Virus record (IMG/VR): IMGVR_UViG_3300049489_000594
Span: 1-21,513 of that record
Strand: one strand, 5' to 3'
DNA length: 21,513 bases
Source of the DNA: a virus
Part shown: positions 1 through 21,364 of the stretch, one piece after another
Layout of the letters: each line of letters begins with the position of its first letter
How positions within the stretch are numbered: position 1 is the stretch's first letter
Made by a program: the position numbers and the translations under genes
The notes under the pieces: generated by a model
Told to the model about the DNA's origin: nothing
Seen by the model: only the letters and a program-made list of their open reading frames with translations
Database searches by the model: none

Positions 1-1293
1 ATTCTCCCTTTCGAGACCTTGCAGTTCAAGGCAAAGTCTAACGGTGAGATCAAGAAGGCAATGCAACGCATGCCTACTGGTGAGACAAAAGAGTTCTTCC
101 CGCAAGACCTTGTGCACTTCTATAGTAACCGTAACCCAGGGTTCACAGTTGGTACACCAGAGCTGTATGCAGCTCTGGATGACATAGCCTTACTACGTAG
201 AATAGAAGAGAACGTAGAGGAGCTAATAGAGACCAACTTGTTTCCGGTGTTTCATTACAAGGTTGGCTCCGACAACTTCCCTGAGCGTGTAGGAAAGGAT
301 GGGCTCAAAGAGTCTGAGGTTGTACGGAACACTATTGAGTATATGCCTGCCGGCGGCATTTATGTCTCTGACCACAGACACGAAATTACAGCTATTGGTT
401 CAGAAGGTAGAGCGTTGAGAATTGACTTCTATCTCTCGTACTTTAAGAGCAGAGTGTTGGCCGCAATTGGTTCCTCTGACGTTGATATGGGTGAAGGTGG
501 TACTTCCAGCAGGAGCACTGCCTCAACAATGTCTAAGGGCATGTTGATGGATGTAGAGGCTGCGGCCTGTCTAATTAAAGCCTTCTTTGACTTCTTTATG
601 ATCAGTGAGATCTTGCTTGAAGGTGGGTACGATCCTCTCGATGAAGAGACTAAGGTAGAGATTAAGTTTGGTGTCATAGACAAGGACGAAAAGAGAGCAG
701 ACGAGAACCATCAGATTCAAGCCTTCCACGGTAACGTTCGAGATATGAATGAGGTACGCAAGGCTCTTGGTGAGAGCCCCTGGCGTGAAGAGCAGATGGA
801 TCTCACATACTTCAAGATGTTCGAGGAACCTCTCGCTCTCGCTAAATCTCTTGCTCCTGGTTCGGCTTCTGGCGAAGTACTTGCTGGGCTGCCTAGCTCC
901 AATATGACTCCCGAAGCTCTAAAGAAAGAGCAGAGTTTTGCCAAAGAGATGTCTAAACAGAAAGCTCCTGCTGGTGGCGCTTCCGGTGCTAAGCCTGGAG
1001 CTTTAGGTGCTGGCTCTCGTAGTGCTTCGGCTTCGCGCAACAGACCTTCTAATCAAACAGGGGCGCGCGCAACAGCTAAAACCAACAGCGACTTGACTAC
1101 AAACGACACTACCATTACCATCTATTCTGATGATAAGAAGGAGTCCTGTGAAATAACTCTCGACTTCCAAGTTGATGAGAAGATTTTCTCCAAGTGGCAC
1201 CAAGAAGTTATCGATAGATATGCAGTGTTTGGTAAGTCTGGAATATCATTGAGTTCTGTTGTTGACACAATGTTGTGGCGCCTAAAAGGATAA
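1..1293 (+). CDS. Portal protein, 5'-truncated by the window edge
   Basis: The reading frame is open from base 1, so the true start lies upstream; the TTG at 19 is probably internal. About 430 codons are visible. Portals form the dodecameric ring at the capsid vertex through which DNA is packaged and the neck docks. The segment at nt 172-250 (LDDIALLRRIEENVEELI, then LFPVFHYKVG) and the segment at nt 385-470 (GSEGRALRIDFYLSYFKSR) look like the stem/wing regions of phage portals, followed by a helical 'clip'-like part. From about nt 840 to 1090 there is an Ala/Ser/Gly/Pro-rich low-complexity linker, then a separate C-terminal segment of about 65 residues whose role I do not recognise. The gene sits directly upstream of the prohead protease, the usual order. 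Identification is by pattern and context only. Confidence 0.75.
   Translation: MLPFETLQFKAKSNGEIKKAMQRMPTGETKEFFPQDLVHFYSNRNPGFTVGTPELYAALDDIALLRRIEENVEELIETNLFPVFHYKVGSDNFPERVGKDGLKESEVVRNTIEYMPAGGIYVSDHRHEITAIGSEGRALRIDFYLSYFKSRVLAAIGSSDVDMGEGGTSSRSTASTMSKGMLMDVEAAACLIKAFFDFFMISEILLEGGYDPLDEETKVEIKFGVIDKDEKRADENHQIQAFHGNVRDMNEVRKALGESPWREEQMDLTYFKMFEEPLALAKSLAPGSASGEVLAGLPSSNMTPEALKKEQSFAKEMSKQKAPAGGASGAKPGALGAGSRSASASRNRPSNQTGARATAKTNSDLTTNDTTITIYSDDKKESCEITLDFQVDEKIFSKWHQEVIDRYAVFGKSGISLSSVVDTMLWRLKG
157..178. repeat. Inverted repeat, 9-bp arms, 4-nt loop
   Basis: Arms CCAGAGCTG and CAGCTCTGG flank the loop TATG, inside the portal gene. No T-tract follows, so it is not an ordinary terminator. 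Confidence 0.85.
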
Positions 1294-1296: not shown

Positions 1297-3000
1297 ATGA
1301 TCAAGCTTACAGATATTGTTCAGATAGAGCCCAGCGGTAGTTATGCTTCTCTTGACAAACAAGAGAAGCATAAGCTCATGGACTCCGTGTTTCAGAACGC
1401 TTCTCCTGAAAAGCGGGGGCTACTCATTCACTTTGGTTTGAGTAACTCGGGACGTCGAATTAACAATAGAATCTACACCCCAAAGGGTCAGATAGATGGG
1501 GCTGCGTCTTGGACGCAGCCTTTCCCCAAGCCTATAATCCTCAACCATAATAGAGAGGGTGATCCTCTAGGTAGGTTTACTTCTGTACGTTATGTATCAA
1601 CAGAAGACCAAGCAGTGCCATTCTTTAAGAAGGTGTCTGACTTCATGGAGATGAAGGACTCCTTCATTGCTGATGATCCTAAGAAGATCTATCGCACTCT
1701 AAAGAAGTTCGGTCTACTTACTGACAAAAGATGGCCGGGCCTTGGAAGATTGGAAGCCTCTGCTCGTATCACAGACGAGTCTGCCGTAGAGAAGTTTCTA
1801 GATGGTCGCTATTTGACCTTCAGTGCAGGCTCTCACACTGACCGGTATGTCTGTGGTATTTGTGGCTCTGACTGGGCCAAGGGTGACATCTGCGACCATA
1901 GACCAGGGCAGATAGATACTGATGGAGAGATGGGTATCTTTGTCACTGGTACATTCGAAGGCGATGAAGCTTCGGTACTAAACACTCCAGCAAATGATCT
2001 AAGCCAGATATTTTCTATGGAGTTTAGCGATTCAGTTGATTTCAATAATCGTGTATCGATAGACTCTAGACGAATTGACACTTCGTCTGTGTACACAATG
2101 GATGCACAGCTGACTGTTGGAGAACCAATCATGCACAAGACAGATGCTCAGACAGACGAGAAGCAGCCAGAGACAACCGTTGAGGTTGCTGCTGAGGTCG
2201 CCGTTGAGACTGATGCTAAGACCGAAGAGAAGCCCCAAGAGCAGGCGGCCTCTACTGAGGCCGCCCCAGAGACGGTTGTAGCAACAGTTGATGCTCCCAC
2301 CGTTGAGGAAGACATTGACTGGGATCTTCTTGATCTCGCTCTTGAGGCAGAGGTTGGTCGTTTGGCTCAGGAGGATGTTGCGCTCAAGGATGCACAGCTC
2401 TCTTCCGAGAAGAGAAGCAAGTTGAGTGAGGATGCTTTTTGTGGCCCCAACCGCAGCTTCCCTGTGCCTGACTGTGCTCATGTTACTGCTGCACGTAGAC
2501 TCGTTGGTCGAGCTAAGCTGAGCGCCTCTCAAAAGGATAAGGTCTTGGCTTGTGTCAATGGAAAGGCTAAGTCTCTTGGTTGCGATTCGGAGAAGGATTG
2601 CCAAACCAAGGCATGTAACTGTGATTCTCTCCAAAAGGACTATCTAGAGGCACTCAAGGTAATTGACATCCTAAAGGTCGAGCTTGAAACATTCAAGGGT
2701 AAACTTGAAGATGCGGAGACCAGTCGTGATACTATTCAAACTAAAGTAACTCCTGTTATTCAGGAAGTGAAAAAGGTTGAGGATCCTTCTGTAGACAGCT
2801 CTGATGCTAAAGCACCCAGTGCAAGCTCGGCGGACTCTAGAAAGAAAGTTACTGATTTTGAACATAATGTGTTGTCTCGTTACCGAGACATTAAGAAGTC
2901 TGATGGTGTTGAGGCAGCTGACGCCTATATCGATGGCAGGAAGCGGCTAGGATACCTTAGAAAGAGTTTCGATCCAAAACAACTAATCGAGGAGATCTAA
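1297..3000 (+). CDS. Prohead protease fused to a scaffold-like C-terminal half
   Basis: 567 aa. The start ATG is 6 bases after an AAAGGA ribosome-binding site that overlaps the portal stop region. Residues 1-245 resemble phage capsid-maturation (prohead) serine proteases: a likely catalytic His84 in ILNHN, and a likely catalytic Ser176 in YLTFSAGS. A CxxC...CxH cluster (C186, C189, C199, H201) follows at once and looks like a small metal-binding insert. Residues 280-360 are acidic and Glu/Ala/Thr-rich. Residues 377-429 form a Cys-containing module (FCGPNRSFPVPDCAHVTAAR onward) resembling short modules found at the ends of other phage protease/scaffold proteins. The remainder is charged and helical. 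Known biology: such proteases digest the internal scaffold and trim head proteins during maturation. My inference is that the C-terminal half acts as scaffold. No separate scaffold gene lies between this gene and the capsid gene. Confidence 0.75.
   Translation: MIKLTDIVQIEPSGSYASLDKQEKHKLMDSVFQNASPEKRGLLIHFGLSNSGRRINNRIYTPKGQIDGAASWTQPFPKPIILNHNREGDPLGRFTSVRYVSTEDQAVPFFKKVSDFMEMKDSFIADDPKKIYRTLKKFGLLTDKRWPGLGRLEASARITDESAVEKFLDGRYLTFSAGSHTDRYVCGICGSDWAKGDICDHRPGQIDTDGEMGIFVTGTFEGDEASVLNTPANDLSQIFSMEFSDSVDFNNRVSIDSRRIDTSSVYTMDAQLTVGEPIMHKTDAQTDEKQPETTVEVAAEVAVETDAKTEEKPQEQAASTEAAPETVVATVDAPTVEEDIDWDLLDLALEAEVGRLAQEDVALKDAQLSSEKRSKLSEDAFCGPNRSFPVPDCAHVTAARRLVGRAKLSASQKDKVLACVNGKAKSLGCDSEKDCQTKACNCDSLQKDYLEALKVIDILKVELETFKGKLEDAETSRDTIQTKVTPVIQEVKKVEDPSVDSSDAKAPSASSADSRKKVTDFEHNVLSRYRDIKKSDGVEAADAYIDGRKRLGYLRKSFDPKQLIEEI
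1341..1373. repeat. Inverted repeat, 14-bp arms, 5-nt loop
   Basis: Arms TTATGCTTCTCTTG and CAAGAGAAGCATAA are perfect complements around ACAAA. It begins 45 bases into the protease gene and has the longest looped stem in the window. Confidence 0.9.
1500..1520. repeat. Inverted repeat, 9-bp arms, 3-nt loop
   Basis: Arms GGCTGCGTC and GACGCAGCC around TTG, inside the protease gene. It is followed by only TTT, so terminator function is unlikely. Confidence 0.85.
2244..2265. repeat. Inverted repeat, 9-bp GC-rich arms, 4-nt loop
   Basis: Arms GGCGGCCTC and GAGGCCGCC around TACT, in the low-complexity Ala/Glu-rich part of the protease-scaffold gene. Confidence 0.85.
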
Positions 3001-3001
3001 A

Positions 3002-4357
3002 ATGACTGTAAAGCGCACTTCTGCGAACTTCAGACAGAGAACAGATGTACTCGATCAGATTACCCCCAAGGTCGTTGTACAGCCTGATGTCTGTGCTCCA
3101 GCCGGGAAGTGGAAGCCAGCTGCCTGGCTTCCCGTCCAGTTCACTAAGTCCAACATTCAAGTTGGTACGAATGCATTCGTGTGTTCGAGTGGCAAGGTTG
3201 TAGCGATGGACTCGGAGAGCCGTATTGTTCCTGCTGGCGTTAAGCTTCAGCTTCGGGACGCAGTGGCTGCTCTAGTCTATACCGCTGACGACGTTGAGTG
3301 GGGAGTAACTGATCTAGTCACCGGCGAGCCTGTTGCGGCAGCCGTCACCTATACCAATGTTGAGGTTGCTGCGGCTATTGTCGAGCGTGGCCTGGTTCTA
3401 GAGCAGGATGTACTTGCTCTCGGCGGCACTATTCCTCCAACACTTACTGCTCATGCAAGAGTTATTACAGATCTCTTCATTAGCTATCCAGTAGGCTTTG
3501 CTGCTTATGACTTCTATGTCTGGAGTGGTCAGCCCGAGGATGGCGATCAGGTCTTTACAAACCTCTCTTACCAGCATGCAGTACAGTTCCTCACTGCTGG
3601 TCAACTCCAGATGCCACAGCTTGTTGCTGGTGAAAATGCTGGCGATGCTTTCGATGTTGCTGCCCTTGATGGTGGTGGCTCTGAGACTTCCGCTGGTGGT
3701 GAGCAGATCATGCCAGGCGAGTACTGGGACGCAACCAACATCGCTACCCTCACTCGGTATGCTGGTGTTGTAACTGCTTCTAGTCCAGTAGTTGCATTAG
3801 GTCTTGATCCTGCTGGTACTGGCGACCAGTTCAGAGTTGCACGCAACACTGATCGCACTCCTGTATCTTGCGATATCGATGGTGTTCTCGTTCGCGAGCG
3901 CTCTGGTATCGATCTGATTACAAAGGAAGGCGATTGGTATCTCGATGCTGAGCTTGGTGTGCTCTTTATCCATTCTGACACCTGGGCAACCGGTGTTGCT
4001 GGTGCGGTAACAGCTACCTTCACTTACAGCTACTATGTCTCTGGCGCAGCTTCGGCACATCGTCAGGTACACTTCGATGGTCCTGCACTTCCAGGGCGTC
4101 GGGTAACCTTTGATTTGCAGTCGAACTGGGTCATGGATACTGGTACTGCTGCAGAGGAAGACATCCTAGGTAAGATTCTTCGCATCGACCGTCAGCCACT
4201 CCCACTATTGTCTTCGGTCAAGACTGGATTCAATGTGTCGGGCGCGCCTGCTACCTTCCAGATGCCTGGTTCTGCAACAAAGGGCTTCACCGATATGATC
4301 ACCCTTTCTGAAGAAGTTGTTGCTGACCAAGTCGTCATCATCAACGCAAAGATCTAA
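3002..4357 (+). CDS. Virion protein of unknown fold in the decoration-protein position
   Basis: 451 aa. The ATG follows the protease stop by one base and has a GAGGAG ribosome-binding site about 8 bases upstream. I do not recognise a named family. The sequence is rich in Val, Ala, Thr, Asp and Gly, has no signal peptide or membrane segment, and reads as mostly beta (for example VTATFTYSYYVSG near residue 340). Codons often end in C, as in the capsid and sheath genes, which suggests high expression. Lying between the protease and the major capsid gene, it occupies the usual place of a capsid decoration or stabilising protein. It is much longer than lambda gpD-type proteins, so a multi-domain decoration or head-fibre protein is an alternative. 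The function is inferred from position only. Confidence 0.55.
   Translation: MTVKRTSANFRQRTDVLDQITPKVVVQPDVCAPAGKWKPAAWLPVQFTKSNIQVGTNAFVCSSGKVVAMDSESRIVPAGVKLQLRDAVAALVYTADDVEWGVTDLVTGEPVAAAVTYTNVEVAAAIVERGLVLEQDVLALGGTIPPTLTAHARVITDLFISYPVGFAAYDFYVWSGQPEDGDQVFTNLSYQHAVQFLTAGQLQMPQLVAGENAGDAFDVAALDGGGSETSAGGEQIMPGEYWDATNIATLTRYAGVVTASSPVVALGLDPAGTGDQFRVARNTDRTPVSCDIDGVLVRERSGIDLITKEGDWYLDAELGVLFIHSDTWATGVAGAVTATFTYSYYVSGAASAHRQVHFDGPALPGRRVTFDLQSNWVMDTGTAAEEDILGKILRIDRQPLPLLSSVKTGFNVSGAPATFQMPGSATKGFTDMITLSEEVVADQVVIINAKI
3111..3132. repeat. Inverted repeat, 9-bp arms, 4-nt loop
   Basis: Arms GGAAGCCAG and CTGGCTTCC around CTGC, near the start of the decoration-position gene. A competing pairing with a CGGGAAG copy just upstream is possible. 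A 14-bp palindrome follows at 3167-3180. Confidence 0.85.
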
Positions 4358-5969: not shown

Positions 5970-7056
5970 AGATTCTGGAATACCTATCGGTATCTCTATA
6001 GAGGTACAGTTTGATAAAGGTATAGATCTGGAGATTGCCAAGGGGTCAGTTATATTGTACGGTGCGGACTTCGACCGCACCTCTGGACCTGAGCAAGCTG
6101 CTTGGATTAATCTAAAGACTGGTGAGAATCCTTTCTACCTGAAGTCACCTGGATTCAGAGGCACGGTACCTCTAGACTTCAGGGTTGAGTATTATGACTT
6201 AGATACCCTTCAGCCGGTTTCTTCTGGGGTTATAACGTCGTCTAGCGACGAGGCAGGGGGCACATCAACCCCTACCATTGGGCATCGTTTAATAGCCACT
6301 CCACAAGAGAAATTGGCTGCTAATACTTTGTACAATTTGTTCATACTAGGAGACCCCTCTGAAGTTGGTAGTGGTATCTCTAAGAGAACTGTATTTGATG
6401 TGGAGTTAAGCAACCCAGTTGCAACTGGGTTGCTGTATATCTACGGTACCTATACAAGAGGGTTAGCCGATAGAGTGGTAATGGAGGTTACGCGCGCAGG
6501 TGACATCGGTACTGCTCAGTATAAGTGGTGGTACGTTTCAGAAGGCCCAGCCGCAGCACGGCTGGGCCATGTAACCTCAAGACGCTATCGTAGACTTGAG
6601 GACGGCCTACAGATACGGTTTAACGGTTCTGCATTTGTTTTGGGGGATACATATGCTTTCAATGTTGAACCGATTGAACGTATGGAGACGAACACTCAGC
6701 TTACGTTTACTACTAATGATGGCTCTTTCTCTGAGCCTCCCGAATCTCCAAGCACTCCTGCTGTTGCAGAACCTCCCTCTACGATTCTTCCTCCTGTGGG
6801 CGGTGGATCCCCTAGTCAGAGCACTCTCTTCGATGTCTTGGGAATGGTTCCAGAGGATAGATCATTCAATGTAAATATGAATACTAGACAGATCACAATA
6901 ACTTTCACTGACAATATTGATGAAGATAGTATTACTGATGAGAGTGTGAAGTTGTATCTAGTATCAGCCGTTGGGCAGTATGCTGATTCAATGGCGCCCC
7001 GGATTCTAAGCAAGAAGCTGACTGTAACTGACAACGTATTAGTAATTGATTTCTAA
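5929..7056 (+). CDS. Virion protein with two SbsA-type Ig-like (Big_5) domains
   Basis: 375 aa from a GTG start preceded by a purine-rich GAAGGAAGAAGAAA stretch; the domain begins at residue 3, so this start is probable. Residues 4-45 (PIVLSTYPADKDSGIPIGIS, then IEVQFDKGI) and residues 300-375 (VPEDRSFNVNMNTRQITITF, then NIDEDSITDESVKLYL) both show the Big_5 pattern: Pro-x-D near the start, a valine-rich strand with F.D.I/L, then a 'SV.LY' strand. Between them are a beta-rich middle section and a Pro/Ser-rich linker near residues 263-297. Such domains are common in phage surface and tail proteins and may bind carbohydrate or host surfaces. Its position before the neck genes suggests a head or neck appendage. 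The exact role is unknown. Confidence 0.65.
   Translation: MTAPIVLSTYPADKDSGIPIGISIEVQFDKGIDLEIAKGSVILYGADFDRTSGPEQAAWINLKTGENPFYLKSPGFRGTVPLDFRVEYYDLDTLQPVSSGVITSSSDEAGGTSTPTIGHRLIATPQEKLAANTLYNLFILGDPSEVGSGISKRTVFDVELSNPVATGLLYIYGTYTRGLADRVVMEVTRAGDIGTAQYKWWYVSEGPAAARLGHVTSRRYRRLEDGLQIRFNGSAFVLGDTYAFNVEPIERMETNTQLTFTTNDGSFSEPPESPSTPAVAEPPSTILPPVGGGSPSQSTLFDVLGMVPEDRSFNVNMNTRQITITFTDNIDEDSITDESVKLYLVSAVGQYADSMAPRILSKKLTVTDNVLVIDF
6409..6434. repeat. Perfect 26-bp palindrome without a spacer
   Basis: The half-site AGCAACCCAGTTG is followed directly by its reverse complement, inside the Ig-like protein gene. It could form a hairpin or cruciform, or be a symmetric protein-binding site. Confidence 0.9.
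6544..6568. repeat. Inverted repeat, 10-bp GC-rich arms, 5-nt loop
   Basis: Arms GGCCCAGCCG and CGGCTGGGCC around CAGCA, 110 bases after the 26-bp palindrome in the same gene. No T-tract follows. Confidence 0.9.
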
Positions 7057-7067: not shown

Positions 7068-8177
7068 ATGACCAATCGTAATGGGGTTCTCGCCGGCGAA
7101 TCAATCACTCTTAGAGTTGTTGTTACTGATGGCTCCGGGGAGCTTAGAAACACTGACAGTCTTCCTGCGGTATACATCTACGATCAGAGTGTTGATGACT
7201 CTGAATTGATCCAGGAGGAAGTAGATGCCGCGACTTTTGCTAGTGCATTCGCGGGCCCACTCACTCCAACACTAGTAGCTCCTGGCTTCTATGAACTGAC
7301 TTACACAGTACCTGAAGGCTCTACGGGTGGTGACTGGCATGATGTTTGGGTAGGTGCTCTTAACGGTGTAGCAACAACCTCTATACAGAGGTTTGCTGTA
7401 ACCGAGGGCGGCCTCATTACTACCCAGAGCATTACTTACAATCAGATGATAGTAATCGAGCTAGATAGCTCGATTACCAATCAACTAAGAACCTCTTCCC
7501 TTAGAGAAGACATCATACTAACCTTCTCTACGGTCTATAAACCTTACTATGCTTCTATAGAGTTGGTGCGCCAAGAAGCAGGTCCGTGGATTGAATATGT
7601 TCCTGATGATACTTTAGCCTTGATGATTCATTGGTCTTCACTAGAGGTAGACTTCATAGCTCCTCCATGCAAGTGTACTGCTGATTTTAAGAGGGCGCGC
7701 ACCAGATTTGTTGTCTACGATACTGCCCTAAAAGCTCTTACTCTTCCTGGGGGCGCTTATGCAAGCGCCCTAGGTAGTTCAGCAGGTGATAGTAAGTCTC
7801 TTGGTGAGTTAGCTATTAAGAAGGGTAACCCAGTAGGTAGTGTATTGTCTGGCGGTGTAGATCTAGATACCATTAAATACTTCCGTGGTAAGAGAGAAGA
7901 GTGGTGGCGCGTGGTTAACGCCGGTGGTTGCATAGTTCCAGGGGAGGGCCTCGGGCCCTCCTTCGCAGTAAAAGGGAAGTACGATCCTGACAAAAGGTTG
8001 ACCGGGAGGCTATGGGAAGACCCAGAAGAGTACTTCTATAGACTTCCCGCCGCCAATACTCGTGCTATCAGAGGCAACCGTAGAAGAGCACGTCATGGCT
8101 TCCAAGACTTCAGAAGTAGAGCGGGAGCTGTACAGATAGGTGGGATAGTAGAGAGAGACTTGGTGGCAGATGATTAA
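7068..8177 (+). CDS. Probable head-tail adaptor with an N-terminal Ig-like domain
   Basis: 369 aa, with AAGGAGA 6 bases before the ATG. Residues 1-115 read as a beta-sandwich (LAGESITLRVVVTDGSGELR, then GFYELTYTVPEG and GDWHDVWVGALNG), a pattern seen in phage virion proteins. Residues of about 155-265 are helical (KPYYASIELVRQEAGPW, PDDTLALMIHWSSLEVDF, RARTRFVVYDTALKAL, KSLGELAIKKGNP) and resemble the helical head-tail adaptor (gp6/gp15-type connector) proteins. The C-terminus is basic (RGNRRRARHGFQDFRSR), suiting contact with DNA or portal. I infer a neck adaptor role from this fold resemblance and from its place before the stopper-like and terminator-like genes. The fusion of an Ig-like domain to an adaptor is inferred. 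The last 8 bases overlap the upstream ATG option of the next gene. Confidence 0.55.
   Translation: MTNRNGVLAGESITLRVVVTDGSGELRNTDSLPAVYIYDQSVDDSELIQEEVDAATFASAFAGPLTPTLVAPGFYELTYTVPEGSTGGDWHDVWVGALNGVATTSIQRFAVTEGGLITTQSITYNQMIVIELDSSITNQLRTSSLREDIILTFSTVYKPYYASIELVRQEAGPWIEYVPDDTLALMIHWSSLEVDFIAPPCKCTADFKRARTRFVVYDTALKALTLPGGAYASALGSSAGDSKSLGELAIKKGNPVGSVLSGGVDLDTIKYFRGKREEWWRVVNAGGCIVPGEGLGPSFAVKGKYDPDKRLTGRLWEDPEEYFYRLPAANTRAIRGNRRRARHGFQDFRSRAGAVQIGGIVERDLVADD
7452..7477. repeat. Inverted repeat, 11-bp arms, 4-nt loop
   Basis: Arms GTAATCGAGCT and AGCTCGATTAC around AGAT, inside the adaptor-like gene. Two shorter 8-bp hairpins lie further on in the same gene at 7751-7770 and 7943-7961. 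Confidence 0.9.
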
Positions 8178-12589: not shown

Positions 12590-12622
12590 GGCTAGGAACT
12601 GACTTCCTAGCCATTAGTTTTT
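12586..12622 (+). terminator. Intrinsic terminator after tube gene 1
   Basis: A perfect 13-bp stem (12586-12598 with 12604-12616; core ATGGCTAGGAA / TTCCTAGCCAT), a CTGAC loop, then G and five Ts. This is the best intrinsic terminator in the window and separates tube gene 1 from tube genes 2 and 3. Confidence 0.85.
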
Positions 12623-12634
12623 AGGAGGATATGC

Positions 12635-13531
12635 TTGGCAACAGATACTTTCTCTCCGATTGTCAATCGGTATTCTTTCTCTGGTGCGGATGCTAAGGCT
12701 TACGCTTACTATGAAGGGTTCTCTTCAGAGTTGTGTTTGCTTGAGTCTATGCACACTATAAGCGTCTCTATACATGAAGGTAAGGGTCAGGCTAGGGCTT
12801 TAGGGTATAGAGGTATAAAGGGTATTGCGCGCGGTATACGCACTATCGCCGGGTCTATGATTATGACCGTAGTAGAGGATCATCCCATGCGCCAACTAGT
12901 ACAACTAGTTGGCCCCTATCTACACGCAGAACCATCTATCTGGGGTGGGTGGAGTTTTGATAGGGCGATTAATGGTACTGGTTCGGTGGCTGATCATATT
13001 GACTTCAATAACCGTATAGAGACATTGTTGCCGCCGTTTAATATATTGGTGACTTATGTTTCGGAGGGCGCGCAATACTCAGAATTCCAGACAACAACTA
13101 CTGACATTAGGTTTGCTCCAGTAGGAGCTACTCAGACTGGTCCGGTTGAGAATTTTAATGGTGGCATTGGCGCTCATATTCCTGGCGCAGGTTTATTACT
13201 ACTAGGTGTAGAGATAATAGATAGTGGTATTGTTACGTCAGTGAATGACGTAGTATCTGAGATGAGCTTTAGTTATATCTGTAGAGATATTAAGCCACTC
13301 GCTAAACTAGACCTAACCAGTATACCTTCGATGACTGCTCCTACTGAGGAGCAGATAAGAGAGGAAAACTTCTTGAAGAGATTGTTTGGCGGCGGAGTTA
13401 ACAAGTTTAATAGACAGCAGAGCAGATCTGCCCAACAGCTTCAGAAGGATCTACGTGAGGCAGGTGCTTCTCAAGAAGAAATTGATGCAAACCTCCGAGC
13501 TGCTGGCTTCGACCCCTCACAGGTGAAGTAA
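12635..13531 (+). CDS. Tail tube-like protein 2 with a charged C-terminal extension
   Basis: 298 aa from a TTG start, chosen because AGGAGG (12623-12628) lies 6 bases upstream. The ATG at 12631 is too close to that site, is in another frame and would give only 21 codons. Its N-terminus (YSFSGADAKAYAYYEGFSSE, then HTISVSIHEGKGQARALGYR and IARGIRTIAGSMIM) and the strand LLLGVEIIDSGIVTSVNDVV leading to MSFSYICRDIKP match tube protein 1, so it is a divergent paralogue. The last 65 residues are an added charged helical tail (EEQIREENFLKRLF, QQLQKDLREAGASQEEIDAN). It follows a terminator and a possible promoter, and its codon use is less biased, so lower expression is likely. A special ring at the tube tip or top, or a baseplate hub component, is plausible. 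Confidence 0.7.
   Translation: MATDTFSPIVNRYSFSGADAKAYAYYEGFSSELCLLESMHTISVSIHEGKGQARALGYRGIKGIARGIRTIAGSMIMTVVEDHPMRQLVQLVGPYLHAEPSIWGGWSFDRAINGTGSVADHIDFNNRIETLLPPFNILVTYVSEGAQYSEFQTTTTDIRFAPVGATQTGPVENFNGGIGAHIPGAGLLLLGVEIIDSGIVTSVNDVVSEMSFSYICRDIKPLAKLDLTSIPSMTAPTEEQIREENFLKRLFGGGVNKFNRQQSRSAQQLQKDLREAGASQEEIDANLRAAGFDPSQVK
12891..12913. repeat. Inverted repeat, 10-bp arms, 3-nt loop
   Basis: Arms GCCAACTAGT and ACTAGTTGGC around ACA, in tube-like gene 2. An 8-bp hairpin (CTGCTCCT / AGGAGCAG) follows at 13335-13354. Confidence 0.9.
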
Positions 13532-14377
13532 ATGTCTCTATACACATATGAGTATTTCTGTGGGGCTAACGTTGTAGTCCAGGTAGAAGGAATGGAGATG
13601 CATGAGGCCGCGGGCATCTCTTTCTCCATCAGAGAGAGTCGCCTTCCCTTATATGGTTATTCTTCCAGACACTTTGATGCTATGGCTAGAGGTCAAGTTA
13701 TTGTTCAAGGCAGTTTGATAGTCAACTACATACACCAGGACTATCTGTTTAGGATTATAGAGTCTGGTAGAGAGCAGGGTACTGGATTTGAAACAGTTAA
13801 TCCTAACGTTGTCACTCAGATTGATTCCCTTCAAGCCCAAGCCGAGCTTTTGGATGCTCTGCAGAACGAAGAGGCTGCAAAATCTTTCAATAATCAGATA
13901 CTCAGCGACCCTGATCGTAACAGGGATCTAATCCAGGCTATGCAGGGTAGTATCTGGGGGAGTGGTGCTCCTATTTTTGGAGTAGCTCCTAGAGGAGCTA
14001 CTGCTATTGATCCTACTGGATTAAACCCTCATGACATGAACTCTTCTGTTCAGATAAAGATAACCTTTGGCGCACGCTCACCTTTTAATAATAGTAATGG
14101 CTCCACTGGCTTATTATTGAGCGGTGTACACTTTGTTAGCCGAGGAGTACCAGTAAGGATAGACGAAGAGGTTATCGTTGAGGAGTATGGATTTCTTGCG
14201 CGCAATGTACATACTCTGAATTCAGAGTCGAGTATTGCAGCGCTACCACTCTCTTCTCGCAATCAAGCTAGGAATCCTTTAGCGATATCTGAAGATCCTT
14301 TGGATTTTACTTTTGATGTACCAGGTTCTATTGTGGGAGGAAGTTTTGGTAACACCTTTAGTACTCCCAAATCATAA
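13532..14377 (+). CDS. Tail tube-like protein 3 with a helical insertion
   Basis: 281 aa. The ATG follows the stop of the previous gene with no gap, and only a weak AGGTGAAG site precedes it, so coupled translation is likely. The tube pattern recurs: YEYFCGANVVVQVEGMEMHE, then ISFSIRESRLPLYGYSSRHF, ARGQVIVQGSLIVNYIHQDY, and at the end SSVQIKITFGARS plus LLLSGVHFVSRGVPVRIDEE leading to YGFLARNVH. A Gln/Asn/Glu-rich helical stretch of about 60 residues (QIDSLQAQAELLDALQNEEA and onward) is inserted in the middle, and a Ser/Gly-rich tail ends the protein. It is a third paralogue, probably a minor ring or connector of the tube. Confidence 0.65.
   Translation: MSLYTYEYFCGANVVVQVEGMEMHEAAGISFSIRESRLPLYGYSSRHFDAMARGQVIVQGSLIVNYIHQDYLFRIIESGREQGTGFETVNPNVVTQIDSLQAQAELLDALQNEEAAKSFNNQILSDPDRNRDLIQAMQGSIWGSGAPIFGVAPRGATAIDPTGLNPHDMNSSVQIKITFGARSPFNNSNGSTGLLLSGVHFVSRGVPVRIDEEVIVEEYGFLARNVHTLNSESSIAALPLSSRNQARNPLAISEDPLDFTFDVPGSIVGGSFGNTFSTPKS
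13981..14002. repeat. Inverted repeat, 9-bp arms, 4-nt loop
   Basis: Arms AGTAGCTCC and GGAGCTACT around TAGA, in tube-like gene 3. A perfect 16-bp palindrome (half-site ACTCTGAA) lies downstream in the same gene at 14213-14228. Confidence 0.9.
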
Positions 14378-14437: not shown

Positions 14438-15211
14438 ATGCCAGGTAGATTACGTGTTCCCCAGGAGGGTCTTAACCCTCACCAGCAGTCTCTTATTAGG
14501 AAGACTTCTGTTACACCAGAACAGATATTTGAGAATATGGATTCTCTAAACGATGAGATTGCTGAAACATACCAAGGTAAAACCAAAACAACTCCTGAGC
14601 CTGTAGTACAGAAGAAGATGGTTGCCGCCGGCCCTCAGAGAGTGCAAAGAATTCATGTACCAGAACCAAAGAAGGAAGCCCCAATGCTAGATATAGACGA
14701 GATGGAGAGAGGATTAGAAGCAGAGCTGGCTGCAGTAGAAGCCAAGCAGAGACAGCAGCCAGCTTCTAAGCAGGTCGAGGCTGCTCCCGAAGAGGAGCAG
14801 CTTTCCCCAGCCGAGCAGCAGAGACTAGCTATACTTGATCTTTTAAAGAAGACCCCGGGAGCGCCCTCTGAGGCACAGATTGAAGCTCTGAAGGCTAAGA
14901 ACGATAACAGTGTGTATGTGCTTGCTCTAGGCGAGGGGGATGTATATGTCTTTACACATCTTCGTAGAGGAGCTTTCCAGAAGATTCGTAAGTTGGTTGC
15001 CGCCGGGCAGGAAGGCCAAGTAGGTGGTGACCCAGAGGAGATGATGAAGGAGAAGGTGCTCCAGTACACAGTACTTTGGCCCAAGGTCGGTAGCCCTGAG
15101 TTCCTATACAACTCTCGGGCAGGTGTAGTCGACACTCTTTACCAGACTGTACTTCTACACTCTTACTTCTTGACTCCTCAGCAATCGATGATGCTAACCA
15201 CACAGCTCTGA
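14438..15211 (+). CDS. Tail assembly chaperone 1 (long N-terminal region, chaperone-like C-terminal domain)
   Basis: 257 aa, with AAGAAGGA 7 bases before the ATG. Residues 1-150 are low in order, rich in Pro, Glu, Gln and Ala, with a likely coiled region (MERGLEAELAAVEAKQRQQP). Residues of about 163-250 form a domain with VYVLALGEGDVYVFTHLRRG, FQKIRKLVAAG, VLQYTVLWPKVGS, then RAGVVDTLYQTVLLHSYFLT. The 'WP...AGVV..LY..vL..S' pattern is typical of phage tail assembly chaperones, which load onto the tape measure protein during tail assembly. The gene lies two positions upstream of the tape-measure-position gene. The next ORF carries a similar domain in the +1 frame. Confidence 0.65.
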   Translation: MPGRLRVPQEGLNPHQQSLIRKTSVTPEQIFENMDSLNDEIAETYQGKTKTTPEPVVQKKMVAAGPQRVQRIHVPEPKKEAPMLDIDEMERGLEAELAAVEAKQRQQPASKQVEAAPEEEQLSPAEQQRLAILDLLKKTPGAPSEAQIEALKAKNDNSVYVLALGEGDVYVFTHLRRGAFQKIRKLVAAGQEGQVGGDPEEMMKEKVLQYTVLWPKVGSPEFLYNSRAGVVDTLYQTVLLHSYFLTPQQSMMLTTQL

Positions 15212-15218: not shown

Positions 15219-15905
15219 CCTAACCTAGATACAAACCTCCTTATGGAGGCCGATAGCCTCTTCGAAACTGTCTACCCAAGTGGGCACAGTTTTGTGTGGA
15301 GGCTTTTGTCTCTCAAGGAGTACAAGAGGTTTCGTGCACTCCGCGATAGCGGCGGAGTGCACCCTTTCGTTATCAATTCGATGGTCTTTGAGAGATGCCT
15401 CGTAGGTGATTCTAACTTTCTCCACAATGATACCCCTGCGGGACTAACTATCTCTTTGGGTGAATGTATTATGTGGTTGAGTGGTGATTGTGAGAACACC
15501 ACCTTAATGCTTGATATTGATAATGCTCGGCGTGCTTATCCAAGAGACTCTGTGAAGGAGTTTATGGCGCGCACTATCTTCACTGCTTTCCCCTCCTATA
15601 TCGAGGAAGATGTATCCAAGTGGACATACCTTGAGCTAGTGAGAAAGTTTGTTATTGCTGAGAATCTTCTACTAACTAGAATTCCAGATTACAAACCCCT
15701 TGATCTGCGCAAGATTACTACTGGCAGTGGGAAGAAAACCCCCGCAGACTCGAAGGAGCTTGCCAAAGAGAATCAAGAGCTAGATCAAGCAATGGGTCAA
15801 AGAGCGCATCCGCTGGACATGACCCCAGATGAGTTTGCTAGTATAGGGAAGAAGCGCATCTCCCCTAATATGGCAAGGAGATTAGATAAGCGCCGAAGAG
15901 GTTAA
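15216..15905 (+). CDS. Tail assembly chaperone 2 (possibly made by frameshift from chaperone 1)
   Basis: 229 aa if begun at TTG 15216. Neither this TTG nor the next in-frame ATG (15243) has a ribosome-binding site, so it is probably made by frameshift or by coupled re-initiation from the ORF ending at 15211. Residues 20-95 (SFVWRLLSLKEYKRFRALRD, VFERCLVGDSNFLHN, PAGLTISLGECIMWLSGD) align by eye with the C-terminal domain of chaperone 1, so the two look like tandem copies of one fold. The C-terminus is basic (KKRISPNMARRLDKRRRG). It ends 2 bases before the tape-measure-position gene, the classic place for the second chaperone product, which contacts the tape measure. Confidence 0.65.
   Translation: MPNLDTNLLMEADSLFETVYPSGHSFVWRLLSLKEYKRFRALRDSGGVHPFVINSMVFERCLVGDSNFLHNDTPAGLTISLGECIMWLSGDCENTTLMLDIDNARRAYPRDSVKEFMARTIFTAFPSYIEEDVSKWTYLELVRKFVIAENLLLTRIPDYKPLDLRKITTGSGKKTPADSKELAKENQELDQAMGQRAHPLDMTPDEFASIGKKRISPNMARRLDKRRRG
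15334..15362. repeat. Inverted repeat, 11-bp arms, 7-nt loop
   Basis: Arms GTGCACTCCGC and GCGGAGTGCAC around GATAGCG, in chaperone gene 2. An alternative inner pairing CCGC/GCGG is possible. Confidence 0.9.
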
Positions 15906-15907: not shown

Positions 15908-18900
15908 ATGGCCTTTGAACCTTACGGCGGCCTAGTCTGGTCAGAGGAGCCAGCTCCTCCGGTTAATCCAATACAGAATCAGATGCTTGCCCTAGGAGCG
16001 ACTACTGCTCTTGGCGCAAGTATGCTTGCTGGTGGAGCTTATTACGGTCGATCGGATTGGAATCCGATCGACTCTGTTATTCAGAGCGCGAAGCTCGCAG
16101 GTAATCTCTCCCCTTATGGGTTTGCGCATACTTTTCGGGTACCAGAGTTTCTTTCGCCACTGGCTTCTCCATCTCACCAGGGGTTGAGTAGCTACCTACC
16201 TGATTCGTCTATACCGCTTCCTGGTCTTTCAAAAGACCATTTAGGTTACAGATGGGACGCGGCCTTTCTCAAAGAAACAAAGACTCAGCAGTATCTTCAA
16301 GCGATTACTGGTCTTGATAGTAGTGAGCTTGGTAAGAGAGGTATCAAGCTAAATATGGCTGGGTCGCCAGACGAACTGGCGACCGATCTCATCTTCGAGC
16401 GTACGAAGGATAGTCCGCGCGGCACTCTTTACACTATGGTTAAGGGTGAACGCAAAGTACTCTCCGATTCAGTCTCTCTCATGAGAATGACTCGTGATAG
16501 TCCCGATATGCTTCATGCTGATAGGTTCATGAATAGAGCTGCGCATGGTGTATTGCAAGCTCTTGACCTATGGAACAGGTTTGGTTGGGAACAACACGCA
16601 GGCAAGAAAGTCTTCAAGTTGCATCAAGATGACCACGATCTACTTGATGCTAAGCCAAAAGATGAGTGGTTTCCCGTACCGTCAATCACAGGTAAGCTTG
16701 ATAACCTAGATGACTTAGGTAGACGTACGGCTCTCCTAAGAGCCGTACCAGCTTTCGAGATGGAGCGGTTTGGCCGATTAGCTAGTGGTTTTGCGCGCCA
16801 AACTTTCGGCCCAGAAGCAGAGAAACTTCTCAAAAGTATTACTGGTCTAGGTTTAGAAACATTACCAGGTCCCTCTCTACACACCTTTGGAAGAATCGGT
16901 GCTAGAGCAGCCCTTGTTGGTGGTGGGTTACTAGCTGTATCTCAGAGCGACTGGATACGAAGAAACTATGGCATTTTAGGTCATGCAGGTGTTAGTGCCG
17001 GCGTCAGCGCCGGCATAGGTTACACCCTTAACCGAATGGGTGCACGCCCACATGTAGCAATGTTTGGAGCTGCAGCAAGCTTCTTCGGGCAGATGGTATT
17101 GCCAGGCTTTGATCAAGGAGTCTTGCCTGGACTAGCGACAGTGTATGCGCGTACTTCTACTATGCGCGCGCATGACCTAAACCCCTTCAACTACTACAGA
17201 CGCACTCTAGAGGGTTTCCTTCCCGGCTCTTCCGATTGGAAGACAGGAGCTTTCTTAGCATTGGGTACGGTACTCGCAACGCAGATGCGAGTACCAGGTA
17301 GCAGACATAAGCTTCCCCAATACCTTTTAACCAAATTTGGTCACCATACCTTTGGTTTAGAAAAGAATGTCTTAATGCCTGATGGGCAGTTGGAATATGT
17401 AAAAGCTCCTAGGACAGCAAGAGACATCTTCTGGAAGCAGGTCACTGAGAACAAGGATGTTGCTTCTGCTATCAATGTTACTGATCTAGGGGAGGTCGAG
17501 TCTCTTACAAAGAGGATGACGCTTTCTTGGAGACTTGGAAAGGCTCAATGGGAGTCTTCGGCTTTTGGCAATTGGACAGATCTCGGCGGACTTCTCAACA
17601 AGACCTGGATGACTGCTGAGAACATTCATCACAAGGAGCTAGATTACAACTCCGTCAATCAAGCGCTCTTGAACCGCTTAGATAAGATCAGTGCTGACTT
17701 TCCTGGCAGTGATTACGTCTCTCGTATATCTAAGGAAGCTATGGGTGCTGGTGCCCAAGCTTGGTATTCTTTCTTTGGAGCTGACGCCACACATGAAGCC
17801 ACTGCTAGTGCTATTCGTGCAAAGGGCTTTGGAGAGATTCCTCTACCCAATTTTCTAAAGCATGTCTCTTCTAGCTTCCCAACGTCGCTACCCATCAGTC
17901 CTACAGCTAAGCTAGGAGCTATGGCTTCTGTTGGGTTAGCAGTCTTTGGGTTACATCAGCTAGTTACGGGTAGTCTATTTGGCTCTATGGAGACGGCTTC
18001 AGAGCTAGACGATATTTACTCTGGTAGAGAGCTAGTAAAGGTTAAGAAGTCTCGTTTCTGGGAAGCTGGTGGCACTCCTTTTGGTGGTATGGAGGGCGGC
18101 GCCTATTTCCGTCCACACGCCTATGCTCTAATGATGAATCGTGTTAGAGAGAAAGGCATTTGGGGAGAGGATGAAGATAGTATCTCTCCTATAGGAAAGT
18201 TCTTTAGGAAGAACTTTACTTACGATCTTGAGACGATGCACTACTACGATAGACCTTATCCTATAAGTAGTGCTGCGTTTGCCGATGTGCCAGTAATAGG
18301 CGGCATACTGTCTTCTTTGGTTGGGCAGTTTATTAAGCCGCCCAAACTAATGCACACCGGCGAGTGGATTCAAGAAGGTGAGGGTGGTGGTTTAGCCTTT
18401 GGTAGCTTGTATGAGGGGTGGCGCCGCGAACCCGCATATTCTCTTGGCGCGCCTAAGCCTGGCATACCTGCTTCTCCCTATGACACATCGCATGTCTTTT
18501 CTCAGATGACTTACCAGTTCAGAGAACTTGAGGGACTTTGCTTTGTGGGCGATACCCTTATTACTACGGAGCATGGGTATAAGCCTATTCGAGATGTTGC
18601 TGTTGGAGAGTCTGTTCTCAGTCTGAATGGACAGTATCTGAAAGTAGAAGGGAAGCTAGTAATTCCCAAGCACAGTAAGCAACTGGTTAAGGTTTCGTTT
18701 TTCAATACGGGCACATCTTTTATAGCAACTAGTAATCACTGGTTGCCTGTTTTAAGAGATGGTGTTGTGACAGACTTGCAAGTCTCTGACTTGCAGAAGA
18801 AGGACTATGTTGTGGTTCCCTTACCAAGAGACAGGGAACCTGTCCAAGTAGACTTAGCTCCATTTGCTGCTGGTTTAAATACAGAGAGATATATTTATTG

Positions 18901-21364
18901 GGAAAGATCCAAGAGTGATTTTGTTGAGGCTATCGAATTTATAGAAGAAAACGGCGACCAGAGGTGTGGACGAAACAGAATTATTCTGCCACACCTCAAT
19001 CGTACAGATGTTTCACATGCTGCCAAAAGAATTCGAGAGAATTTGCCTATAAAGCGTTGGAAGCGTTTTCTTGATTTAACTGATGAAGATGTTTTGTGGT
19101 TTCTAGGATGGTTCGTTGCAGAAGGTTCCACTGAGATTGCGAACTCTCGGATTGCTTTGACATTAGGATGGAAAGAGAGAGAAATTGCTAACAGACTAAA
19201 AGAGATTGCTGTAAACAAACTTGGCTGTCTGCTCCAGCAAGAGTGCCTTGTTGAGAACTCAAGTATTACTCTTCGCTTTTCTCACGGAGGTCTTGTTCAT
19301 TGGCTTAGAAGTCAGTTTGGCAGAAATTGCTATGAAAAGCATGTGCCAGAATGGGTCAAGCAGCTTCCTCAGAGACTGCTAGTACATTTTGCATCTGGCC
19401 TTTGCAATGGAGACGGATGGGCTGGCGGGTTTAAGTCCTGTTCAGCTACCTTAGTTAAGGATGTTTTCTTAGTTCTGGCCAAGCTCAGTATTTGCTCTAA
19501 TGTTCAATTGCATAGACATGATAAGCAGGGTTTAGAATATAGTCAGCTGTTTATTACTGAAAGACACCTAGAGAACTATACTTTAGTTTTAAATCGTCAA
19601 CTTCCTGAGATACTTGATGAGCGTCCTTCCGCTCATAAATATGCTTTCTTGAGTCATAGAAGGCTGTATATACCAGTGAAGTGTATTAATTATCTTGACA
19701 CTACCGAGCCAGTTTATGACCTAACAATACAAGGACACCATTACTACACTGCGGAGTTAATAGCTGTACACAATACCGGCTGGTCGAAGAACCTTATTAG
19801 CGAGATGGTAACTGGTTCCTCGGCAATTGGCACTGATCAACCAGTTCTCAAAACCTCTAGTGAGATGACTAGCTGGACCAATAGGTTCCTAGAGACTCAG
19901 CAAGGCGGCTTGTTCTTTTCTAACGAAATCATTAGACGTATACTTGGTAAGCCTCAGTCTGGGTTCGATAGACAGAATCCAATTATGAATGATATGCCCA
20001 CCTGGATGCCTCAGCGCTTCAAGTATGGTGACCCATATCGTGCTGTTGAATGGGGTGAGGCACGTATGCCTGGTCCTGGATTTGCGGCATTACATCCAGA
20101 ACTCAGAGGTACTTCTCCTGAAGACTATCCAATGCTTTATAGGTATTCGATTCTAGCTGACGTAGCTCCATGGACCCATGAGCTACGTTGGACGAGGGAG
20201 CAACTCTATCAACAAAGAGGCGCTGGGTTGACCTCTGGTGCTGAGAATCAATACATGGATGAGATTGATAAGCAACTAAGAGAGAAGTACAACAGGTATA
20301 CATTTGATCAAGCGAGAGCGGGCGCAATTGAACTCCCTGGCTCCCAAATAACTCAAGCTTTACACTCTATAGCTAAACAAGGTCTCAGAAGGTTTGCTGC
20401 TCCAGTTGAGTATTTAATTCCATTTGGTTTTCGCCCTGTGCAGAAGTTGATGGGTGATGATCGATCTATGATCGAACAGTACAAGTATGAACGGATGTCT
20501 GGCACTCCATTCGCCTTCTGGAACAAGCCGTGGAGAGATTGGTTCAGACCGTCGATACTAAGTGCGCTTAACGCATTCGGGTTTGACAACAAACCCGAAT
20601 GGAGAAAAGAGGCCGATGCTAACCAAGAGTACTTTGATAAGTTAGAGTTCGTGAAATGGATGACGCTTGCCCAGCAAGCGTCAGACCATGGAGACGTGCG
20701 TTTGAGCCACCAGTATAAGTATATGGCCGCTGGGACGCGCACAGGTATCAACCCGCAGGGCAACCCTCTAAGCATCTATTGGTCGATGCCCGAGTCAGAG
20801 AGAGCTTTCTTTAACTCCTTCTCGTTTGCCCAGGGTGGTGAGAGAGAAAAGATCCTTAACATGGTCCCAGAAGACCAAGCTCACTTATATCAGGCTGTTT
20901 GGGAGCGCATGGATTCGGGGGACCCCGGTCTCTGGGCTGGATCTCCCTCGTCGGTAGATGATCAATACTTAGCGCAGCAGTTCCGTGGTGCGCAGGAGTA
21001 TTTTGACTACAATCCAAGGCCACCTGATGACTGGATAGGACATAATAGTGACGCTGATATCGGCGATATTCGTGTACGGTATCTCACAGAGATGGGCCGT
21101 GATCTTCATGACTACGGCGAATGGGAAGGCTCGGTTAAGGATGCTTATGCTCAAGAGTTCTATGAGGGCTCTACGGACTTCTTGCCTACAGGTGGGGGTG
21201 TAGGTAGGGGTACTCTCTGGAGCGAACTAAAGAGACTTTCTGGAAACGCAGGCAGTACTTTGCACACTAATGCTTCAGTTCAAACCAGAGCTAATATTCA
21301 GTATAATGACAACCGTGACTCAGACTTCAGAAAAGGTCTAATGGATTATCTATATGGGTATTAA
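15908..21364 (+). CDS. Tape-measure-position giant tail protein, interrupted by an intein
   Basis: 1818 aa precursor; the ATG is 6 bases after AGAGG and 2 bases after the chaperone 2 stop. Removing the intein (residues 878-1289) gives a 1406-aa product. Position right after two chaperones argues for the tape measure protein, which sets tail length and helps pass DNA through the host envelope. Several hydrophobic stretches fit this: LALGATTALGASMLAGGAYY near residue 30, ALVGGGLLAVSQ near 345, HAGVSAGVSAGIGYTL near 360, VAMFGAAASFFGQMV near 385 and LGAMASVGLAVFGLHQLV near 670. However, much of the rest is Trp/Pro/Tyr-rich and not coiled-coil-like, so it could be an internal tail or DNA-ejection protein, with tape-measure function shared with the next gene. 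It carries at least eight perfect inverted repeats with arms of 8 bp or more. Confidence 0.6.
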   Translation: MAFEPYGGLVWSEEPAPPVNPIQNQMLALGATTALGASMLAGGAYYGRSDWNPIDSVIQSAKLAGNLSPYGFAHTFRVPEFLSPLASPSHQGLSSYLPDSSIPLPGLSKDHLGYRWDAAFLKETKTQQYLQAITGLDSSELGKRGIKLNMAGSPDELATDLIFERTKDSPRGTLYTMVKGERKVLSDSVSLMRMTRDSPDMLHADRFMNRAAHGVLQALDLWNRFGWEQHAGKKVFKLHQDDHDLLDAKPKDEWFPVPSITGKLDNLDDLGRRTALLRAVPAFEMERFGRLASGFARQTFGPEAEKLLKSITGLGLETLPGPSLHTFGRIGARAALVGGGLLAVSQSDWIRRNYGILGHAGVSAGVSAGIGYTLNRMGARPHVAMFGAAASFFGQMVLPGFDQGVLPGLATVYARTSTMRAHDLNPFNYYRRTLEGFLPGSSDWKTGAFLALGTVLATQMRVPGSRHKLPQYLLTKFGHHTFGLEKNVLMPDGQLEYVKAPRTARDIFWKQVTENKDVASAINVTDLGEVESLTKRMTLSWRLGKAQWESSAFGNWTDLGGLLNKTWMTAENIHHKELDYNSVNQALLNRLDKISADFPGSDYVSRISKEAMGAGAQAWYSFFGADATHEATASAIRAKGFGEIPLPNFLKHVSSSFPTSLPISPTAKLGAMASVGLAVFGLHQLVTGSLFGSMETASELDDIYSGRELVKVKKSRFWEAGGTPFGGMEGGAYFRPHAYALMMNRVREKGIWGEDEDSISPIGKFFRKNFTYDLETMHYYDRPYPISSAAFADVPVIGGILSSLVGQFIKPPKLMHTGEWIQEGEGGGLAFGSLYEGWRREPAYSLGAPKPGIPASPYDTSHVFSQMTYQFRELEGLCFVGDTLITTEHGYKPIRDVAVGESVLSLNGQYLKVEGKLVIPKHSKQLVKVSFFNTGTSFIATSNHWLPVLRDGVVTDLQVSDLQKKDYVVVPLPRDREPVQVDLAPFAAGLNTERYIYWERSKSDFVEAIEFIEENGDQRCGRNRIILPHLNRTDVSHAAKRIRENLPIKRWKRFLDLTDEDVLWFLGWFVAEGSTEIANSRIALTLGWKEREIANRLKEIAVNKLGCLLQQECLVENSSITLRFSHGGLVHWLRSQFGRNCYEKHVPEWVKQLPQRLLVHFASGLCNGDGWAGGFKSCSATLVKDVFLVLAKLSICSNVQLHRHDKQGLEYSQLFITERHLENYTLVLNRQLPEILDERPSAHKYAFLSHRRLYIPVKCINYLDTTEPVYDLTIQGHHYYTAELIAVHNTGWSKNLISEMVTGSSAIGTDQPVLKTSSEMTSWTNRFLETQQGGLFFSNEIIRRILGKPQSGFDRQNPIMNDMPTWMPQRFKYGDPYRAVEWGEARMPGPGFAALHPELRGTSPEDYPMLYRYSILADVAPWTHELRWTREQLYQQRGAGLTSGAENQYMDEIDKQLREKYNRYTFDQARAGAIELPGSQITQALHSIAKQGLRRFAAPVEYLIPFGFRPVQKLMGDDRSMIEQYKYERMSGTPFAFWNKPWRDWFRPSILSALNAFGFDNKPEWRKEADANQEYFDKLEFVKWMTLAQQASDHGDVRLSHQYKYMAAGTRTGINPQGNPLSIYWSMPESERAFFNSFSFAQGGEREKILNMVPEDQAHLYQAVWERMDSGDPGLWAGSPSSVDDQYLAQQFRGAQEYFDYNPRPPDDWIGHNSDADIGDIRVRYLTEMGRDLHDYGEWEGSVKDAYAQEFYEGSTDFLPTGGGVGRGTLWSELKRLSGNAGSTLHTNASVQTRANIQYNDNRDSDFRKGLMDYLYGY
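16047..16072. repeat. Inverted repeat, 12-bp arms, 2-nt spacer
   Basis: Arms GTCGATCGGATT and AATCCGATCGAC around GG, near the start of the tape-measure-position gene, extended by a G-T wobble pair. Confidence 0.9.
16362..16384. repeat. Inverted repeat, 9-bp arms, 5-nt loop
   Basis: Arms GGTCGCCAG and CTGGCGACC around ACGAA, in the tape-measure-position gene. Confidence 0.9.
16725..16748. repeat. Inverted repeat, 10-bp arms, 4-nt loop
   Basis: Arms GTACGGCTCT and AGAGCCGTAC around CCTA, in the tape-measure-position gene. An 8-bp GC-rich hairpin (TGCCGGCG / CGCCGGCA) follows at 16996-17015. Confidence 0.9.
17269..17295. repeat. Inverted repeat, 10-bp arms, 7-nt loop
   Basis: Arms GGTACTCGCA and TGCGAGTACC around ACGCAGA. 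Two 12-bp palindromes lie nearby at 17162-17173 and 17330-17341. Confidence 0.9.
18196..18217. repeat. Inverted repeat, 9-bp arms, 4-nt loop
   Basis: Arms AAAGTTCTT and AAGAACTTT around TAGG, upstream of the intein. An 8-bp pair (GCACTACT / AGTAGTGC) with a 20-nt structured loop follows at 18239-18274. Confidence 0.85.
18539..19774 (+). mobile_element. Intein with LAGLIDADG homing endonuclease, in frame in the tail protein
   Basis: 412 aa (precursor residues 878-1289). Inteins excise themselves and join the flanking sequences. Seen here: Cys878 opens block A (CFVGDTLITTEHGYKPIRDV), block B is GTSFIATSNHWLPVL with His944, block F is PVYDLTIQGHHYYTAEL, and block G ends AVHN with the His1288-Asn1289 pair, followed by Thr1290 as the +1 nucleophile. 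All residues needed for standard splicing are present. Between the splicing blocks are two LAGLIDADG motifs, FLGWFVAEG (Glu1072) and ASGLCNGDG (Asp1169), both keeping the acidic metal ligand, so the endonuclease looks intact and the element probably mobile. The junction is RELEGL / TGWSKN. The intein appears more AT-rich by eye than its host gene. Confidence 0.93.
18961..18997. repeat. Compound inverted repeat inside the intein
   Basis: Outer 9-bp arms GAGGTGTGG (18961-18969) and CCACACCTC (18989-18997) enclose an inner 5-bp hairpin CAGAA-TTA-TTCTG. A 14-bp palindrome also lies in the intein at 18772-18785. Confidence 0.8.
20160..20188. repeat. Inverted repeat, 9-bp arms, 11-nt loop
   Basis: Arms ACGTAGCTC and GAGCTACGT; the loop can form three more pairs (ATG/CAT). 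Located after the intein. Confidence 0.8.
20574..20601. repeat. Inverted repeat, 12-bp arms, 4-nt loop
   Basis: Arms CATTCGGGTTTG and CAAACCCGAATG around ACAA, in the C-terminal part of the tape-measure-position gene. Confidence 0.92.
20661..20683. repeat. Inverted repeat, 10-bp arms, 3-nt loop
   Basis: Arms TGACGCTTGC and GCAAGCGTCA around CCA, only 60 bases after the previous hairpin. Confidence 0.9.

Follow-up and report, generated by a model that had tools for sequence, protein, structure and literature searches.

Perfect inverted repeats (IRs) with short arms occur in excess in the genes of prokaryotes, and Ladoukakis and Eyre-Walker, as cited in PMC4060949, attributed them to template switching; the word 'phage' is absent from that citing paper's main text. 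Quasipalindrome template-switch mutation is cited in PMC7202029 both for T4 rII and yeast CYC1 (Ripley 1982) and for E. coli thyA (Dutra and Lovett), while short spacers are favoured in yeast template switching and the excess of short IRs is given the same attribution (PMC8604942). Concerted arm change has been described, and template switching proposed, for the mitochondria of nematomorphs (PMC6649704), and single mutation events create or repair perfect stems in RNA hairpins (PMC8794818).

The locus analysed here is a 21.5 kb virus record (the window, meaning the whole stretch of DNA under analysis). It resembles the prokaryotic pattern, cp8g6 in PMC4060949, in carrying perfect short-arm, short-spacer IRs within genes beyond codon-matched expectation, and our bacterial control loci are likewise in excess. 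It departs from that type, as PMC4060949 relays it, in degree: the excess is about 10-fold in the window and 3.7-fold in its phage family, versus 1.3–1.5-fold in T4-like phages and bacteria on the same measure. The likeness to quasipalindrome mutation, as represented in PMC7202029, lies in exactly perfect arms arising from imperfect ones at the DNA level, and hence in indifference to G.U pairs; in T4 rII, CYC1 and thyA, however, the events were seen directly, whereas here only the end state is visible and the footprints were not found. Nematomorph mitochondria share many perfect, often species-specific IRs in conserved protein genes, but their arms reach 142 bp, compared with 8–14 bp in this phage. 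The template-switched RNA hairpins of PMC8794818 are in RNA genes under structural selection, unlike the protein genes studied here, which show neither G.U tolerance nor conservation.

Inverted repeats in a phage structural module

The window derives from an uncultured tailed phage and holds a structural module of the contractile-tail type, with genes for the portal, head maturation protease, major capsid protein and tail sheath, as well as an intein-containing ORF of 1818 aa (15908–21364). The intein splicing domain (PF14890) of this ORF occupies residues 893–1289, a stretch so much longer than the 155-position profile that there is space for an endonuclease domain. Megablast against the phage-record collection returned no close record, and a search of genome contigs with the major capsid protein found no relative. 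Its closest relatives, at ~70% nucleotide identity, are IMG/VR contigs, some of them 110–190 kb long; none above about that identity turned up in the collections searched.

Counting perfect IRs with arms of at least 8 bp and spacers of 0–7 nt, we found 31 in the window, including 20 with arms of at least 9 and 13 with arms of at least 10:

157..178, unstranded, perfect IR, arm 9, spacer 4; portal gene
1341..1373, unstranded, perfect IR, arm 14, spacer 5; longest arm, gene 1297–3000
1500..1520, unstranded, perfect IR, arm 9, spacer 3
1651..1667, unstranded, perfect IR, arm 8, spacer 1
2244..2265, unstranded, perfect IR, arm 9, spacer 4
3111..3132, unstranded, perfect IR, arm 9, spacer 4; near-perfect in 7 relatives (conserved peptide)
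6409..6434, unstranded, perfect palindrome, arm 13, spacer 0
6544..6568, unstranded, perfect IR, arm 10, spacer 5
7452..7477, unstranded, perfect IR, arm 12, spacer 2
7751..7770, unstranded, perfect IR, arm 8, spacer 4
7943..7961, unstranded, perfect IR, arm 8, spacer 3
9005..9024, unstranded, perfect IR, arm 8, spacer 4
9269..9286, unstranded, perfect IR, arm 8, spacer 2
12039..12063, unstranded, perfect IR, arm 9, spacer 7
12586..12616, + strand, intrinsic terminator hairpin, arm 13, spacer 5, then GTTTTTA; intergenic gap 12560–12634, outside the coding excess
12891..12913, unstranded, perfect IR, arm 10, spacer 3
13335..13354, unstranded, perfect IR, arm 8, spacer 4
13981..14002, unstranded, perfect IR, arm 10, spacer 2
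14213..14228, unstranded, perfect palindrome, arm 8, spacer 0
14780..14801, unstranded, perfect IR, arm 8, spacer 6
15334..15362, unstranded, perfect IR, arm 11, spacer 7
16047..16072, unstranded, perfect IR, arm 12, spacer 2
16222..16239, unstranded, perfect IR, arm 8, spacer 2
16362..16384, unstranded, perfect IR, arm 9, spacer 5
16725..16748, unstranded, perfect IR, arm 10, spacer 4
16996..17015, unstranded, perfect IR, arm 8, spacer 4
17269..17295, unstranded, perfect IR, arm 10, spacer 7
18196..18217, unstranded, perfect IR, arm 9, spacer 4; fully paired in contigs L019 and L021, at least partly explained by the peptide KFFRKNF (self-complementary codons)
18777..18795, unstranded, perfect IR, arm 8, spacer 3
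20574..20601, unstranded, perfect IR, arm 12, spacer 4
20661..20683, unstranded, perfect IR, arm 10, spacer 3

The original prediction had read about 26 perfect IRs (arms 8–14, spacers 0–7), nearly all inside genes. It was right about the excess and about the coding location, which applies to 30 of the 31, and too low in its count; the coordinates of its eleven repeats with arms of at least 10 are all exact, those at 12586 and 13981 having been overlooked. Its view that the repeats are not terminators holds for the other 30, judged by their location within genes, and fails for 12586–12616. That terminator runs directly into a Shine-Dalgarno sequence (AGGAGG) and then, at 12635, a TTG start, placing termination inside the structural operon. 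As had also been claimed, the arm sequences are all different and form no dispersed repeat family, and an Rfam search gave no RNA-family match. Their spread along the window is Poisson-like (gap CV 1.08) with no position preference, and the codon-phase classes number 15/8/7 in the window and are near the null family-wide.

Mononucleotide shuffles of the window yielded 2.1 IRs with arms of at least 8 and 0.12 with arms of at least 10. Synonymous codon shuffles (n = 500), which leave the proteins and the codon use of each gene unchanged and which had been proposed with the prediction as the comparison able to overturn it, left the excess standing, with 3.6 IRs (sd 1.6, maximum 10) against 31 observed for arms of at least 8, and 1.2 (maximum 3, with one fixed intergenic hairpin included in the 1.2) against 13 for arms of at least 10. 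The density of IRs in the window is thus ~10 times what its proteins and codon use require, and the excess is real. Chance, base composition, codon use or self-complementary peptides do account for a minority, namely about three IRs per shuffled window and the repeats at 18196 and 3111, but as an explanation for the bulk they are refuted by the shuffles, and we regard them as the least probable of the readings weighed here. Under the definition used in PMC13155455 (arms of at least 10, spacers up to 8), the window has 15.9 IR bases per kb, compared with a median of 1.306 over the 118,019 genomes of that survey, whose counting details may differ from ours.

Distribution of the excess among phages and bacteria

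IRs inside ORFs were counted against codon shuffles at 347 loci, of which the 301 whose coding sequence exceeds 8 kb were ranked by density. The window ranked first, and ranks 2–7 were all taken by members of its own family. Family-wide, 208 IRs with arms of at least 8 were observed versus 56.5 expected (3.7-fold), while T4-like loci reached 1.5-fold, nrdA-bearing phages 1.3-fold, and 80 bacterial recA neighbourhoods 1.5-fold (3.7-fold for arms of at least 10); since the loci inside each group are partly redundant, these group ratios are descriptive. A larger sample of the family showed an excess ranging from ~10-fold down to chance, with high density in many members, and in two long family contigs the excess extended genome-wide at ~3-fold.

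The T7-like loci (L112–L191) stood at the opposite end, with 5 IRs observed versus 137.5 expected for arms of at least 8 (0.04-fold, a 25-fold depletion). Stems of at least 10 pairs with one mismatch were reduced equally (2 versus 41, 0.05-fold), and the depletion was robust over lineages, with 2 versus ~33 in 18 representatives. We read this as selective avoidance of stems, which may be connected with the phage's cruciform-cutting endonuclease or with its transcription; a literature search on IR depletion in T7-like phages found nothing.

Perfection and turnover of the arms

The excess is confined to perfect stems. Against codon shuffles, the window held 29 perfect stems versus 2.8 expected for arms of at least 8, and 13 versus 1.05 for arms of at least 10, whereas one-mismatch stems were near expectation (10 versus 6.6 for at least 8 pairs, 1 versus 1.3 for at least 10), so that imperfect stems of similar thermodynamic stability show no enrichment. 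Across the family, perfect arms of at least 9 were enriched 7.9-fold and one-mismatch stems of at least 9 pairs 1.9-fold. Selection on stem stability should raise both classes, so that the rise of perfect stems only argues against it; that T7-like phages lose both alike indicates that this comparison can see structural selection. Near-perfect stems contained 40 G.U and 36 A.C mismatches, both ~1.6-fold over expectation, and single-side changes in close pairs were likewise balanced (49 G.U, 51 A.C), so that this test of RNA-level selection gave no sign of a G.U preference. Measured over 0.95 Mb of coding DNA from the family, the excess peaked at spacers of 4–6 nt and was gone by ~15. Loop composition in the family was that of chance, with C-G closing pairs favoured and no preferred tetraloop (GNRA 5 and UNCG 2 of 82), and in the window pairing ended sharply at the arm ends, the sequence beyond being random.

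At ~70% identity, with up to 20 relatives per IR, the IRs of the window were neither conserved nor covarying beyond chance, the exceptions being 18196 and 3111, which lie over conserved peptides. Doubly changed pairs in these distant relatives were Watson-Crick at a frequency of 0.333, where chance is 1/3; a higher value relative to slid controls was an artefact of slid partners starting unpaired. Arm asymmetry against distant relatives gave no signal in what is a saturated comparison.

Close pairs of family genomes (77–98% identity) behaved differently from these distant comparisons, in a sample that is small and comes partly from low-excess members: 18 of 99 IRs were perfect in both genomes, arms diverged ~17% less than expected (0.142 versus 0.172 per site), and 20 of 29 doubly changed pairs (69%) were Watson-Crick, compared with 0.43–0.48 for chance-level IRs (P ~0.01, normal approximation). 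The compensatory arm changes for which the original prediction had proposed to look are therefore absent beyond chance at ~70% identity and modest in closer pairs. Some maintenance or inter-arm copying could be at work here, through templated correction or weak selection, and the indifference to wobble favours the former.

Classical template switching is expected to produce clustered one-arm changes and, now and then, inversions of the spacer, the latter being the classical footprint of intermolecular switching and not required of intramolecular switching. At IRs broken in the sister genome, one-armed multinucleotide changes in close family pairs numbered 16 versus 16.3 expected, so that the individual candidates L019:2309 (TCC to AGT) and L019:8762 are unsupported by the pooled test. 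A one-arm test polarised by an outgroup was also null (5 of 13, versus 225 of 543 in controls), no burst of changes was seen on the IR-bearing branch (0.66 versus 0.74 per IR), and none of 101 changed spacers in the family was inverted. The same script found inversions in 9 of 51 spacers in T4-like phages, indicating that the method can see them; these nine (among them those in L038/L057 and L048/L073) lie between perfect arms of the AAAGGG..CCCTTT type, apparently at terminator hairpins. Gaps at IRs in close family pairs (10% versus 8%) gave no sign of an origin by insertion. Births of the window's own IRs cannot be watched, because no relative closer than ~70% identity was found.

Perfect-only repeats missing from relatives are also what fold-back errors in a low-coverage consensus would look like. 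Such a sequencing, library or assembly artefact is nevertheless very unlikely: residues encoded by the arms are conserved like those of random segments (0.399 versus 0.418, sd 0.035) and include no stop, whereas simulated one-arm overwriting from seeds of 3–4 bp lowered conservation to 0.31–0.33 and introduced 2.4–3.2 stops (P < 0.02), with a weaker contrast for seeds of 5–6 bp (P 0.05–0.11). Moreover, relatives in the family that come from other samples also have the excess, and contigs of different metagenomes have some IRs in common (L417/L418, L019/L021). We give slightly less credence still to a defence-related structure, likewise among the explanations of the original prediction, in which hairpins would block restriction, CRISPR or RNA-targeting nucleases; nothing beyond hairpin density speaks for it, and the diversity of the arm sequences, the turnover of IR positions between relatives and the lack of an RNA-family match all speak against it.

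Origin of the excess and its implications

The excess is real, perfect-only, dependent on hairpin geometry, indifferent to wobble, respectful of proteins, family-specific and turning over. We lean, with reserve, towards reading it as the steady-state trace of mutation at the DNA level, through quasipalindrome correction, rather than as a set of functional elements. The replicating strand would fold on itself at a short imperfect palindrome, and the polymerase would briefly copy the opposite arm, as in this form of template switching, making each arm the exact complement of the other; only synonymous or tolerated events would survive purifying selection on the proteins. The process may be unusually active, or decay by point mutation unusually slow, in this family and most of all in the lineage of the window. 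Both replication template switching as the cause and the reason for its strength in the family are what we infer from these patterns. Template-switch perfecting, one of the explanations put forward in the original prediction, gives the best fit to a perfect-only, loop-length-dependent and sharply bounded pattern, and the Watson-Crick double changes and slower arm divergence are as arm copying predicts; since neither one-armed changes nor spacer inversions were detected in close relatives, however, it is the leading and not a demonstrated mechanism. These null results lower our confidence in large templated patches as the source, leaving corrections of one to two bases, or mutation combined with weak selection.

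The slower divergence and the compensatory excess could come from selection instead. Weak selection on many perfect DNA or mRNA hairpins (which might, for example, protect mRNA, cause pausing or serve a DNA-binding factor), with sites turning over fast and density rather than position being kept, is a less probable reading that we nonetheless take seriously. It would suit the spacer optimum and the C-G closing pairs expected of stable hairpins, the high density in many family members and the good folding of single window hairpins (z −4.6 to −6.7), but it sits poorly with the lack of enrichment of stable one-mismatch stems, the equality of G.U and A.C, the absence of a preferred loop class, the chance-level pairing and lack of conservation at ~70% identity, and IR positions without preference. 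The mRNA stability or processing signals and pausing sites suggested in the original prediction are disfavoured by most of the same observations, together with the absence of the IRs from relatives, and the analysis does not support a role for the IRs as RNA elements.

The family consists of myophages with a C-family polymerase: all eight long contigs (G001–G008) encode a C-family (DnaE-type, bacterial-type) DNA polymerase, and family A or B polymerases are absent from these eight. In seven of them separate ORFs carry the two parts of the NTPase domain (PF07733), the break falling near profile position 102, while in G001 a single 1146-aa ORF contains both halves and has an insertion at that position. 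In L430, for example, the halves (11331–13487 and 18548–19807) are ~5 kb apart with other ORFs between them. It is conceivable, though we consider it rather unlikely, that this family, whose replicase is of bacterial type and split in its catalytic domain in most members, replicates with exceptionally frequent hairpin-templated copying. It would then be a natural mutator of a specific structural kind, continuously adding perfect hairpins to its genes, and T7-like phages would mark the other extreme; the link between the C-family polymerase and the IR excess is a testable idea and not a finding. The kind of process is known, and the unusually high level makes this an extreme instance.

Mutation templated by hairpins is usually met with in model genes, one event at a time. 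A family in which its apparent end product lies ~10 times above codon expectation, set beside T4-like phages at 1.5-fold and T7-like phages at 0.04-fold, forms a ladder of replication systems for comparing rate, polymerase type and nuclease content. The contrast between perfect and one-mismatch stems, with T7-like phages as calibrator, offers a cheap way of separating mutational from selective hairpin excess. For annotators it brings a caution, in that a strong hairpin in a phage gene is not always a regulatory RNA.
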